Shown here: one piece after another, positions 21,399 to 24,790 of the stretch | Layout: every line of letters begins with the position of its first letter | Position numbering within the stretch: the stretch's first letter is position 1 | NCBI RefSeq assembly: GCF_003865375.1 | Contig: NZ_RQVS01000016.1 | Location: 1 to 36,531, forward strand | From: Gulosibacter macacae | GTDB taxonomy: Bacteria > Actinomycetota > Actinomycetes > Actinomycetales > Microbacteriaceae | DNA: 36,531 nt | Direction: 5' to 3' | Notes under the pieces: generated by a model | The model's database searches: none | Told to the model about the DNA's origin: nothing | What the model saw: the letters and a program-made list of their open reading frames with translations, nothing else | Made by a program: the position numbers and the translations under genes

Positions 21399-21823
21399 GC
21401 GGTGAACCGGGCGCGCACCTGAGCCTTGCCGAGAACGGCCTTGCCGTCGTAGATCACCGCGAGGTCGATGCGGCCAATGCCGTCGTCACCGGCGGGTTCG
21501 CCGACGGTTGCCGTGACCGTGACTTCAGCAGCTTCGTTCGGGGCAACGACGACCGGCCGGGTGAAGCGCACCTGGTAGTCGACAACGCGGCCCGGATCAC
21601 CGAGCGCATCGACAACCGGCTGGATTGCGGCGCCCATAGTGAGCATGCCGTGGGCGAGCACACCCGGCAGGCCAACTTCGGCGGCAATGTCGTCGCGGTA
21701 GTGGATCGGATTGAAGTCGCCGGATGCACCGGCGTAACGCACGAGCGTGTCGCGCGTGAAGTGCAGGGTGCGTTCGGCGACGAGGTCGCCCTTGGCTGCA
21801 TTGCTGAGGTCGATCGCGCTCAT
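21395..21823 (-). CDS. MaoC-type (R)-3-hydroxyacyl dehydratase, HadB-like
   Basis: This 142-residue hot-dog-fold protein carries the hydratase motif YAGASGDFNPIHYRDDIA, with the Asp/His catalytic pair, and LAHGMLTMG. It resembles HadB, the catalytic subunit of the mycobacterial FAS-II dehydratase. The upstream gene is the HadA-like partner with a 4-bp ATGA overlap, and murB follows with the same kind of overlap. Function in a cell without mycolic acids is inferred to be fatty-acid chain elongation. Confidence 0.9.
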   Translation of the reverse strand: MSAIDLSNAAKGDLVAERTLHFTRDTLVRYAGASGDFNPIHYRDDIAAEVGLPGVLAHGMLTMGAAIQPVVDALGDPGRVVDYQVRFTRPVVVAPNEAAEVTVTATVGEPAGDDGIGRIDLAVIYDGKAVLGKAQVRARFTA

Positions 21824-22278
21824 GAGTCTGCTCCCTGCGGTGCGCCGACAACGAGGGTCGCGGTGCCGGTCACGACGGTGTTGCCCGCTGCATCCGTGAA
21901 GGTGGTCGCGGCGGTGATCATGCTGTTCGCGCCGAGTGCGCGCACGCCGGTGATCTCGAGCTCGGCGGTGAGCTCATCCCCGGCGACAATCTGGCGCTCG
22001 AAGCTGAAGCGCTCGTCACCGTGCACGATCTGCTTGAGCTCGAAGTCGACGAGCTCGTCTTGCAGCATGAGCTGCATGGCGCGGTCTTGGAGCACAGCGC
22101 CGTAGGTCGCGGGGGCGACGATGTCTAGGTAGCCAGCTGCTTGGGCGGCGGCGACATCAAAGTGGATGGGGTTGGTGGCGAGCACCGTGCGCGCGAAGTC
22201 GCGCACATGCTCGCGGCCAACGAGGTAGGGCTCGGGTAGCCGGAAGCGGCGCCCAGCAAGTTCTGGATTCACGGTCAC
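21820..22278 (-). CDS. MaoC-like FAS1-type dehydratase domain protein, HadA-like
   Basis: This 152-residue protein of the UPF0336/HadA group contains the substrate-side motif YLVGREHVRDFARTVLATNPIHFD and a hot-dog core (VAPATYGAVLQDRAMQLML, HGDERFSFERQIVAGDEL). It lacks the catalytic D/H pair carried by its partner downstream. The start is GTG at 22278, and TAAGCT lies 7 bp upstream, so the mRNA is likely leaderless. It heads the hadA-hadB-murB operon. Confidence 0.9.
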   Translation of the reverse strand: MTVNPELAGRRFRLPEPYLVGREHVRDFARTVLATNPIHFDVAAAQAAGYLDIVAPATYGAVLQDRAMQLMLQDELVDFELKQIVHGDERFSFERQIVAGDELTAELEITGVRALGANSMITAATTFTDAAGNTVVTGTATLVVGAPQGADS

Positions 22279-22373: not shown

Positions 22374-22468
22374 TGAGCCTTCGTGACGAACCTGACCCTT
22401 GTTGCGAGCCTTCCGGCCAAACCTGACCCTTCTACGGGTCGGGTTTGGCGGGAAGGGTCAGGTATGCC
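22374..22468. repeat. Palindromic repeat, copy A (95 bp), left of the AbiEi-nuclease gene
   Basis: Copy A contains two direct units near GACRAACCTGACCCTT (22385-22400 and 22415-22431), each preceded by GAGCCTT, then two inverted versions. The inner part folds into a stem of about 21 bp, with one mismatch and one G-U pair, around a 6-base loop. Copy B at 23585-23679 has the same length and about 80% identity (19 differences by hand count). The copy lies between divergent genes, where a terminator would not be expected. Confidence 0.9.
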
Positions 22469-22568
22469 ACCACGCTTCTCGACTATGCACAGCTCACCGA
22501 GTCGAGGTCTATCCACAGACCCACCGATATCTTGGCTCCGCAATACCGGGATGCAGTGAACTGTGCGC

Positions 22569-23558
22569 ATGCGAATGCTCTACGCGGCACACGAATCCCG
22601 AGATCAGGTCAGCGCCAAACGACTGCGCTCGCGTGCGCAACGCGGCGAAATCATGCAGGTGTATCGCGGCGTCTACCTCGATCCCGAAGGAACCAACCCT
22701 GACTCGCTCACTTCAGACCTCAAGCACGTGATCCGACTTGCCGCACTCTCCCACACGCTCTCGACCTCGGTCGTCAGTGGCGTAAGCGCGGCTCTGCTCC
22801 ACGGACTCCCCGTTCCCTGGAAGCACTGTCGAGTGCCAGTGACGGTTACCCGCGCTTCAGGCGGCACAGGTTCTCGCTGGTTAAGGGTGCGCGATGGGGA
22901 GTTAAGCGAGGACGAAATCGTCACGGTTCACGGCATCCGCGCAACGTCGCTGCATCGCACGTTGCGGGACTTGCACGAGGTTCTCGGCCCGGATGATCTC
23001 CTCGCCGCGGCCGACATGGCGCTCCATCTGGGCGTCGACCTCTCGGAAATCCCCTCAGGCTCACGACATGCCCAAGGGATGCGGCGGCTTCGAGAGCACG
23101 CATCCCTCCTAAGCGAAAGTCCCACCGAGTCGCGAAGCCGTTCGATCTTGTTGCGCTTCGGTGTTCCCGCACCCACTCCACAACTTGAGGTGCTTGACGA
23201 TCGAGGCAACCTGCTGGGACGCGGAGACCTCGGCTGGCCGGCGTTTGCAACGATCGGAGAGTATGACGGGCGCAGCAAGTACGGTGAACTGCTCGCCCCA
23301 GGGGTTACTGCCACTGACGCGATCTTTGCCGAGAAAGATCGCGAAACTGACATCCGAAATCAGGGTTGGCAGTTCGCGCGCTGGGGTTCAGAGTTGCTCA
23401 AAGATCCGATCCGGTTGGTCGACACGGTCAACAGGGCGCTCGAGATTGGCAAAAGCCTGCCACCCCTGCGCGGAAGCTATCGACAGGGCACACCACGTCG
23501 CCGGGTGGCACCCGATTTTTCACCGCTATTCGCGCAGGTGAGGTCGCTCGCCGCCTGA
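22569..23558 (+). CDS. AbiEi-like N-terminus fused to a PD-(D/E)XK-type nuclease domain
   Basis: This 329-residue protein (ATG 22569; a GTG two codons earlier is possible) has an N-terminal winged-helix-like part with the pattern SAKRLRSRAQRGEIMQVYRGVYLDP, typical of AbiEi-family antitoxin-domain proteins. The middle region includes TVHGIRATSLHRTLRDL. The C-terminal part resembles actinobacterial restriction-like folds: E187 in TESRSR, D220 in GRGDLGWP, E231-Y-D-G and K237. No AbiEii-type nucleotidyltransferase toxin is adjacent, so it is not a canonical type IV pair. Two 95-bp palindromic repeats flank it on both sides, suggesting transfer or rearrangement as a unit. Its role (defence, toxin or genome maintenance) is unknown. 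Confidence 0.8.
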   Translation: MRMLYAAHESRDQVSAKRLRSRAQRGEIMQVYRGVYLDPEGTNPDSLTSDLKHVIRLAALSHTLSTSVVSGVSAALLHGLPVPWKHCRVPVTVTRASGGTGSRWLRVRDGELSEDEIVTVHGIRATSLHRTLRDLHEVLGPDDLLAAADMALHLGVDLSEIPSGSRHAQGMRRLREHASLLSESPTESRSRSILLRFGVPAPTPQLEVLDDRGNLLGRGDLGWPAFATIGEYDGRSKYGELLAPGVTATDAIFAEKDRETDIRNQGWQFARWGSELLKDPIRLVDTVNRALEIGKSLPPLRGSYRQGTPRRRVAPDFSPLFAQVRSLAA

Positions 23559-23584
23559 ATCGATGCGTTGATACGGCGCATCCC

Positions 23585-23679
23585 TGAGCCCTTGTGACAA
23601 ACCTGACCCTTGATACGAGCCTTCATGACAAACCCGACCCATGCATGGGTCGGGTTTGTCATGAAGGGTCCGGTTTGTC
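23585..23679. repeat. Palindromic repeat, copy B (95 bp), right of the AbiEi-nuclease gene
   Basis: Copy B has the same unit order and direction as copy A. Its core, 23620-23667, is a perfect 48-bp palindrome centred between 23643 and 23644. Outer units GACAAACCTGACCCTT (23596-23611) and AAGGGTCCGGTTTGTC (23664-23679) lie on either side. Several stem pairs differ from copy A on both strands together (C-G to A-T), which suggests the fold is maintained. Confidence 0.92.
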
Positions 23680-23700: not shown

Positions 23701-24606
23701 CTAACCCGCGCGGCGCGAGCGGCGCAGCGCGAGCTCGTCGATCGTCGAGTCGTTGAGCGCGGCGTGGTCGCGGCGGGTAGCCGTCTCGCGCAGGCCAAAG
23801 ATCTTGCGCTGCGAGAGCTCGAGCGTGTCGAGGTCGATCCGCGTGATGGTGTCATCGGGGATGCGCGTCCACCCCGCAAGATCGATGCCCGTCGATGAGA
23901 ACACGGTAGTGCCATCGTTCATCTGCAGCATGGCCAGCTTGTAATAGTTCTCGTTGTGGTCGATCGGCAACTCGGCCGGGTCAATGCCATACGACCTAAA
24001 CGTCGCGTCGTGCACGCGCGCCGTCGAGTTCGCGTGCACCACGATCAGCTCGCGATCAGTGAGCACCACCGCGTTGAGGCTCGCCTCGGGAAAGGCACCG
24101 CGCAGAATCTGCAGCGTCCGCACCACACCATCGCCGACCGTGCCGTCAACCTCACGCACCGTCTGGCGCAGCAGCGCAAAGTAGAGCTCCGAGTCGGTCG
24201 TACCCTCGATCTCGTCGTACGCATCCGGGTGCAGCAAATCAGCGAAGCGCTCGACCGGAATAATGGACCCGTTGTGCGCAAACGCAATACCGTCAGCAAC
24301 GAAGGGATGCGTGTTCACCTTCGTGCGCTTGTGCTGGTCAGTCGCAAGCCGCAGGTGCACGAGGCGCGCGAGCGAAGCACCCTCACGCAGCGCCGAAGTG
24401 AGCAGCGGATCGTGCTGACCCGGAGTCGAAATGCGCAGCGATTCCACCTCGGGGTTCGACTCACCGGGACCAGCGGCAAGCCACGCGGTGCCCCAGCCAT
24501 CATTGTGGACCGTGGTCATCTGCTGGAAGGCCTCGGCGTTTTCTGCGCCGATCACCTCCGAGACAGTGGTCTCTCGAGGTGCGGCGTAGGCGAACAAACG
24601 GCACAT
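23701..24606 (-). CDS. Class II glutamine amidotransferase family protein (YafJ-like)
   Basis: This 301-residue Ntn-type amidotransferase uses Cys2, exposed after Met removal, as nucleophile: MCRLFAYAAPRE. Other family features are TTVHNDGWGTAW, the LVHLRLAT and HNGSIIPVERF motifs, and GTTDSELYFALL. The start at 24606 is fixed by GAGGAGGAA upstream and by the need for Cys2. No partner synthase domain is fused, so the acceptor substrate is unknown; YafJ and EgtC are family members. Its stop lies just past repeat copy B and faces the AbiEi gene. Confidence 0.9.
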   Translation of the reverse strand: MCRLFAYAAPRETTVSEVIGAENAEAFQQMTTVHNDGWGTAWLAAGPGESNPEVESLRISTPGQHDPLLTSALREGASLARLVHLRLATDQHKRTKVNTHPFVADGIAFAHNGSIIPVERFADLLHPDAYDEIEGTTDSELYFALLRQTVREVDGTVGDGVVRTLQILRGAFPEASLNAVVLTDRELIVVHANSTARVHDATFRSYGIDPAELPIDHNENYYKLAMLQMNDGTTVFSSTGIDLAGWTRIPDDTITRIDLDTLELSQRKIFGLRETATRRDHAALNDSTIDELALRRSRRAG

Positions 24607-24790
24607 AGCGGTGTTCCTCCTCGCTGCGTGGATGCACGCCCACTTCAGGCGCGCGACATTCCGTCCATCCTCCCACTGTGCCCGCATCCGCGCACGGGTG
24701 GGCGACTTCCGCAGTCATATTCCGCCGCCAGCGCACACCACAACACCGACAGGATGCACTGTCAACTACAAGTGCGACCATAGAGAGGCC

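Follow-up and report, generated by a model that had tools for sequence, protein, structure and literature searches.

Why should a single gene in Gulosibacter macacae stand between two copies of one long palindrome? The question arises within a stretch of 36,531 nt (the window), where two 95-bp repeats in direct orientation, copies A and B of a family that we call R1, bracket one gene encoding an AbiEi-type domain joined to a Vsr-like nuclease domain (Table 1). A preliminary description of this DNA offered two readings, either a small mobile cassette or a protein that recognizes its own flanking repeats, and we have followed both through the locus, the genome, the congeners, and the wider gene family. 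The answer that we think probable is a repeat-associated nuclease system, in which the palindromes would be copied in trans by the AbiEi-type/Vsr-like nuclease while its gene is passed on mostly vertically.

Table 1. Features of the nuclease locus (positions in the window)
Feature	Position	Strand	Remark
Left neighbor, MaoC-like dehydratase	21820..22278	-	adjoins the right neighbor directly in 5/10 congeners
Upstream palindromic repeat, copy A of family R1	22374..22468	+	between divergent starts of the MaoC-like and nuclease genes, 94 bp before start
AbiEi-type/Vsr-like nuclease fusion gene	22563..23558	+	331 aa, predicted GTG start
Part coding for AbiEi-type N-terminal region	22563..23036	+	residues 1 to about 158
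Part coding for nuclease domain	23106..23462	+	residues about 182-300
Conserved nuclease-domain residues			E189, D222, E233, D235, K239, R260, E261, R273, W274
Downstream palindromic repeat, copy B of family R1	23585..23679	+	between convergent genes, 26 bp after stop
Right neighbor, class-II glutamine amidotransferase (GATase)	23701..24687	-	

Results

The R1 repeats and their dispersal

The two copies are equal in length and 80% identical over a 95-nt alignment (81% over 93 nt), in agreement with the preliminary description, and its further claim that copy B contains a perfect 48-bp palindrome is borne out by reading the central part of the sequence; the arms of this copy adjoin one another and are complementary at 26 of the 27 nt in each. 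When folded as DNA, each copy forms a long nested hairpin (z -5.9 for A and -11.4 for B, with 0 of 200 shuffles equally good), and the four versions of a unit that had been described, two direct and two inverted, are visible in this fold, with the 3' tail pairing with the outer unit and the inner unit forming the central hairpin. The differences between copies had been called partly compensatory in the stems, and over 16 genomic copies there are two-sided changes in 12 of 31 pairs, a number matched by 19 of 500 shuffles, with a covariation score that 0 of 500 shuffles reach, the pairing structure used in this comparison being derived from the same 16 copies. As a known RNA the hairpin was rejected, the only matches being sub-threshold ones to miRNA precursors.

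The repeats had been thought to occur nowhere else, which holds for the window, where we found no further copy, and does not hold for the genome, where BLAST together with a covariance model of 16 copies reveals 17 of full length (E below 1e-11), so that the dispersal expected of a mobile or recognized repeat is there. Most of the other 24 rows of the genome search are reverse-strand hits on these copies, incomplete copies, or members of the L102 family (see below). Relative to called genes, 10 of the 17 copies lie in convergent, 2 in divergent, and 4 in tandem intergenic positions, and one (L019) lies within a called ORF. Copy A is more similar to another copy, C36b (84% identity), than to copy B (80%), and since A and B are thus not mutual nearest copies, the pair is not a fresh composite element. 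Beyond this genome the searches found little R1: copy A as query has no match in 59 other genomes at E 1e-4, the model has none in 10 congeners at E 0.01 among the candidates scored, and among 398 genomes of the same family, the own genome included, two others match at 35-52 bits, few candidates having been scored.

A second R1 pair, also in direct orientation, brackets an MBL-fold gene at L013:3388-4448, with the copies 966 bp apart; by a rough reckoning, two such close pairs among 17 copies look unlikely.

The nuclease gene and its product

The N-terminal half of the protein is matched clearly by PADLOC AbiEi models (3.3e-13) and, in a comparison using the predicted structure, by the AbiEi structure 6y8q, whereas the Pfam AbiEi_4 match is weak, at 15.8 bits against a cut-off of 25. 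In this half it resembles the AbiE type IV toxin-antitoxin systems, from which the locus differs in having no adjacent toxin gene, in the nuclease domain that follows, and in the repeats on both sides. The preliminary description had recognized both domains and the missing partner, and these results uphold it: neither the MaoC-like gene nor the GATase gene, the immediate neighbors, is an AbiEii nucleotidyltransferase toxin gene or a methylase gene.

For the nuclease part, the best match among solved structures, judged from the predicted structure, is the homing endonuclease I-Bth0305I, and the catalytic domain is predicted to have a Vsr/I-Bth0305I-like nuclease fold. Profile searching of solved structures gave one chance-like match, and NCBIfam held no family common to more than one of 43 members. 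In an alignment of these 43 proteins (the window protein and 42 of the 80 family loci sampled below, 38 of them bracketed and 4 others), E189, D222, E233, D235, R260, and E261 are invariant and K239 is present in at least 90%, which points to a catalytic role for this charged core. The conserved set of Vsr/I-Bth0305I-type enzymes is EDxHD; here the conserved set is E..D..ExDGxxK instead, and the domain is fused to an AbiEi-type domain.

Four family genes were found in the G. macacae genome at E 1. One paralogue, L101:4348-5331 (G000 C12), has an in-frame TAG inside the region matched to the window protein and may therefore be truncated or decaying; it is nonetheless bracketed on both sides by a clean 68-bp palindrome.

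The site in congeners

The MaoC-like gene is present in 10 of 10 genomes of the same genus, and in five of these (G003, G005, G006, G007, and G009) the nuclease gene is absent and the MaoC-like gene lies directly beside the amidotransferase gene, with a gap of about 60-150 bp that is close to the 95 + 21 bp left outside the repeats in the window. Empty sites carrying one repeat copy had been predicted for a cassette; the gene-free sites exist, but no R1 was detected in them at E 0.01. Two of them, in G009 (L086:4088-4179) and G007 (L087:3664-3755), hold in its stead a common 92-bp palindrome of another sequence, 93% identical between the two, which has no match elsewhere in the 25 relative loci compared and may be a solo element belonging to a different family. 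In G004 the site is taken up by about 2.7 kb of other sequence, and no amidotransferase gene turned up in the stretch read from G001, G008, or G010.

In G002 the same site carries a nuclease gene whose product is 50% identical, flanked not by R1 but by other repeats with CTCCAC...GTGGAG arms. Because this homologue has different flanking repeats, the test was moved from the repeat to the gene family. By eye, the G002 homologue (L084:3150-5230) has an array of short CTCCACCCCGCCGAGGTGGAG-type repeats on both sides, not single copies.

Bracketing across the gene family

A scan of 84,980 species genomes yielded 257 relatives; we retained the best 80, and 77 of these loci had enough flank for the test, a blastn comparison of the 400-bp 5' flank with the 3' flank at a threshold of at least 40 bits. 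Control and context genes were called with a GC-position heuristic, with start codons as predicted. A repeat common to both flanks was found for 38 of the 77 family genes against 2 of 765 neighboring genes (Fisher p 8e-42, a statistic that ignores relatedness and takes in phylogenetically non-independent counts). Restricting the comparison to genes with both gaps of 60 bp or more gives 37 of 61 against 1 of 289, and wider flanks (800 bp, 45 bits) give 36 of 76 against 4 of 713, with no additional bracketed gene. Among the 39 misses, three (L133, L150, and L172) have copies at both ends that are recognized with the repeat of a close homologue, the downstream copies of L133 and L172 extending into the end of the called gene; the other 36 of the 77 genes have no detectable bracketing even when homologues' repeats are used.

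The bracketed members belong to 27 of 44 protein clusters (60% identity, single linkage) and to Gulosibacter, Rhodococcus/Prescottella, Hoyosella, Nocardia, Skermania, Antrihabitans, Tomitella, Pseudonocardia, Nakamurella, Blastococcus, Microlunatus, Propionicimonas, Actinomyces, Cellulomonas, and other genera. Bracketing thus recurs over the Actinomycetota, and the repeats are specific to the gene. In the G. macacae genome itself all four family genes are bracketed, by four different repeats, and in a set of 208 of its genes only six reach 50 bits, namely the four family genes, a neighbor of the L102 gene, and the MBL-fold gene. The enrichment beside the gene family that had been predicted is therefore seen for flanking repeats as such and not for R1, which does not stand beside the other three family genes since each has a different repeat; a cassette with ends specific to the gene family is rejected as worded. 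One actinomycete metagenome-assembled genome (PROP2, JAIUOS01 contigs) likewise has three bracketed nuclease genes, L181, L126, and L138, with three different repeats.

In the 38 bracketed loci the median distance is about 106.5 bp from the upstream copy to the extended start and 12.5 bp from the stop to the downstream copy, and the pair is in direct orientation in 29. The upstream copies fold at a z of -3 or below in 24 of 38 (40 shuffles each), and the remainder fold less well; the median fold energy per nucleotide is -0.33 kcal/mol for the repeats (n 35, of the 38, owing to length limits) and -0.18 kcal/mol for 70-mers upstream of control genes (n 200). A 9-mer with at least four occurrences on the two strands, one mismatch allowed, is present in only 15 of 42 repeats, a property that random palindromes sometimes equal, and a fourfold motif as a universal rule was rejected on this count.

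Other repeat families

Dispersal through the genome was seen in all four families searched (R1, L102, L184, and L181). The L102 family occupies 30 places in the G. macacae genome (52 rows on two strands), of which 15 are tandem, 9 convergent, and 6 divergent, with none of the 30 inside a called gene when up to 30 bp of overlap is allowed. A general preference for convergent sites was rejected: R1 has 10 of 17 copies there, but the L102 family has 9 of 30, against a background of 12 among the 65 intergenic gaps of those stretches. The elements are intergenic whole units with defined ends and terminal inverted repeats, and no target-site duplication was seen by eye around the 30 copies. Their motif, CTAATACG, is present as two direct and two inverted versions, and in 26 of 30 elements all four motif copies have the same base at its variable position; agreement amounts to 166 of 180 against a shuffle mean of 95, which 0 of 5000 shuffles reach. 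The copies at the locus of the L102 gene are all three of the A type.

At L102:5716-7956 (C35:155715-157955) the nuclease gene and the gene after it are surrounded by a row of three L102 repeats. By eye, the strings GGATGCG/CGCATCC and CTTCGAG..CCTCAGC recur just outside many R1 and L102-family copies in this genome (G000), and they could be a target preference or another genomic repeat.

In Blastococcus, where 40 of 81 candidates were scored, the L184 family occupies no fewer than 8 places in its genome, with one weaker match in each of two of five other genomes, all of them homologue carriers, among the candidates scored. For the L181 family, scoring of 40 out of 53 candidates puts the count in its own genome at 40 places or more; there are 15 in the genome of L186, whose homologous protein is 66% identical, and no match in four genomes carrying other homologues.

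Co-diversification and inheritance

Similarity of repeats was found in 9 of 861 locus pairs, for which the mean protein score is 374 bits, a value that 0 of 10000 permutations reach. The proteins are at least 65% identical in seven of these nine pairs and 49% and 43% identical in the other two; by contrast, L117 and L151 have 69% identical proteins and repeats without similarity, and the closest protein pair, L168 and L174, showed no repeat likeness in the all-pairs test but did so in the search with homologues' repeats. Repeats are thus alike mainly between close homologues, which are themselves mostly syntenic, and since these are close homologues in close species, the co-diversification is partly common descent, to which the concerted motifs may also be partly due.

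Among the listed pairs with at least 70% protein identity, flanking DNA is shared on one side or more by 30 of 31 and on both sides by 28 of 31, and where both genes of such a pair are bracketed, six of seven have common flanks on both sides. Many homologue pairs at 55-70% identity occupy different loci. Searched against 50,697 phage records at E 1e-10, the Rhodococcus homologue L117 has no match; against 72,556 plasmid records at E 1e-15 it has three. The family nuclease gene is, in the manner of a RAYT gene, chromosomal and mostly vertically inherited. Recent mobility of a small cassette, as first suggested for this locus, is accordingly not indicated, given the greater likeness of copy A to C36b than to copy B and the mostly syntenic homologues at or above 70% identity; a gene that stays in place while its repeats disperse is a better fit than a cassette that hops.

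Discussion

The repeats specific to each gene, their dispersal alongside the cognate gene, the concerted change of the motif, and the conserved nuclease core lead us to infer that the protein recognizes the motif and drives the dispersal, and of the two original readings it is the protein recognizing its own flanking repeats that fits best. Most likely the nuclease gene is stable and the palindromes are non-autonomous elements, in an arrangement like that of RAYT and REPIN with an unrelated enzyme. The AbiEi part would bind the motif in the palindrome, the nuclease would cut or nick the hairpin once it is extruded, or else its edge, and the palindrome would then be copied to other places through repair or strand transfer; solo copies would be elements dispersed in trans, with the gene itself inherited mostly vertically, as RAYT genes are. 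Several observations count against this explanation, namely the 36 of 77 genes with no detectable bracketing, the R1 pair around the MBL-fold gene, the weak hairpins of some repeats, the fourfold motif in only 15 of 42 repeats, the locus pairs in which likeness of repeat and of protein do not go together, the R1 copy inside an ORF, and the lack of any target-site duplication visible by eye in the 30 L102-family copies.

A rival reading makes the elements ordinary MITEs moved by unrelated transposases, with the nuclease gene a passenger caught between two of them. They are indeed short, non-coding, and mostly intergenic, with MITE-like terminal inverted repeats, and an R1 pair surrounds the MBL-fold gene as well. 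They differ from MITEs in bracketing a nuclease gene, one family per gene, with no parent transposon seen in a search for Y1_Tnp; a Y1 transposase, the only transposase family searched, was not found in the genome. A passenger origin would call for a separate event and a separate transposase for each family, and across many genera the repeats differ from gene to gene, with 763 of 765 other genes unbracketed, so that we consider this explanation quite unlikely. A regulatory role is somewhat easier to entertain, though still unlikely: the AbiEi part would regulate its own gene from the upstream palindrome as operator, the downstream palindrome would serve as a terminator, the dispersed copies would be a regulon or chromosome-organizing sites, and the nuclease part would be incidental. 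The short distance of the downstream copies from the stop (median 12.5 bp) and the 10 of 17 R1 copies between convergent called genes speak for this, and according to PMC7319586 the AbiEi of Streptococcus agalactiae autoregulates through inverted repeats. Yet a regulator has no need of a copy of the same sequence after the stop, nor of dispersal as whole units, defined ends, or concerted change in every motif copy; convergent intergenic sites are poor places for operators, and the nuclease core is conserved.

That the whole cassette is mobile, the nuclease cutting a solo palindrome and the gene being copied in by repair from the flanking palindromes, has become very doubtful to us, even with I-Bth0305I as the top structural match, gene-free sites in 5 of 10 congeners, and pairs at 55-70% identity often in different loci. 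Such self-homing sits poorly with the flanking DNA that 30 of 31 pairs at or above 70% identity have in common on at least one side, with the presence of one gene per repeat family against 17 (R1) and 30 (L102) repeat copies in the own genome, and with empty sites that have no detectable R1 copy at E 0.01. Relatives of AbiEi and Vsr are found in defense and repair contexts, and PADLOC labels the N terminus AbiEi, from which one might suppose that the nuclease attacks incoming DNA while the genomic palindromes titrate it or mark self DNA; this would leave the bracketing unexplained, the immediate neighbors are neither methylase nor toxin genes, and we regard such a function as extremely improbable.

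The preferred explanation, a stable nuclease gene whose palindromes are copied in trans, has its nearest parallel in the RAYT/REPIN systems, where a single gene is likewise flanked by palindromes that are scattered through its genome. The RAYT enzymes belong to the HUH tyrosine transposases and their REPs are GTAG-tagged and 20-40 bp long, whereas the enzyme here combines an AbiEi-type domain with a Vsr-like nuclease and the repeats are mostly 45-180 bp and not so tagged. The working may be RAYT/REPIN-like, yet the defining enzyme is missing, since Y1_Tnp has no match in the own genome (it is found in 5 of 14 control genomes), and a REPtron proper was therefore rejected. PMC3733652 gives the name REPtrons to such gene-repeat units, PMC8266576 describes the RAYT enzyme and its repeats as co-evolved, and PMC8049555 describes the RAYT gene as not known on plasmids and mostly vertical.

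The recurrence of this arrangement, with different repeats, in many other actinobacteria suggests an enzyme-plus-repeat system of a kind that has so far escaped notice. In the open-access PMC literature we found no description of AbiEi or DUF559 proteins linked to flanking palindromes. We would put at about an even chance the broader proposition that this is a second, independently evolved bacterial population of an enzyme with its intragenomic repeats, in which actinobacterial AbiEi-Vsr-type nucleases recognize a motif in the palindromes that flank them and copy these around the chromosome, in convergence with RAYT/REPIN and with no HUH transposase. If it is true, palindromic repeats of high-GC genomes would gain an origin from a second such system, in the Actinomycetota and with an unrelated enzyme, and the many naturally diverged pairs of enzyme and site would allow the joint change of a nuclease and its site to be followed. 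It would also account for some of the single genes that carry no annotation beyond AbiEi-family antitoxin or hypothetical protein, names of the kind that stand under the three plasmid records matching L117.
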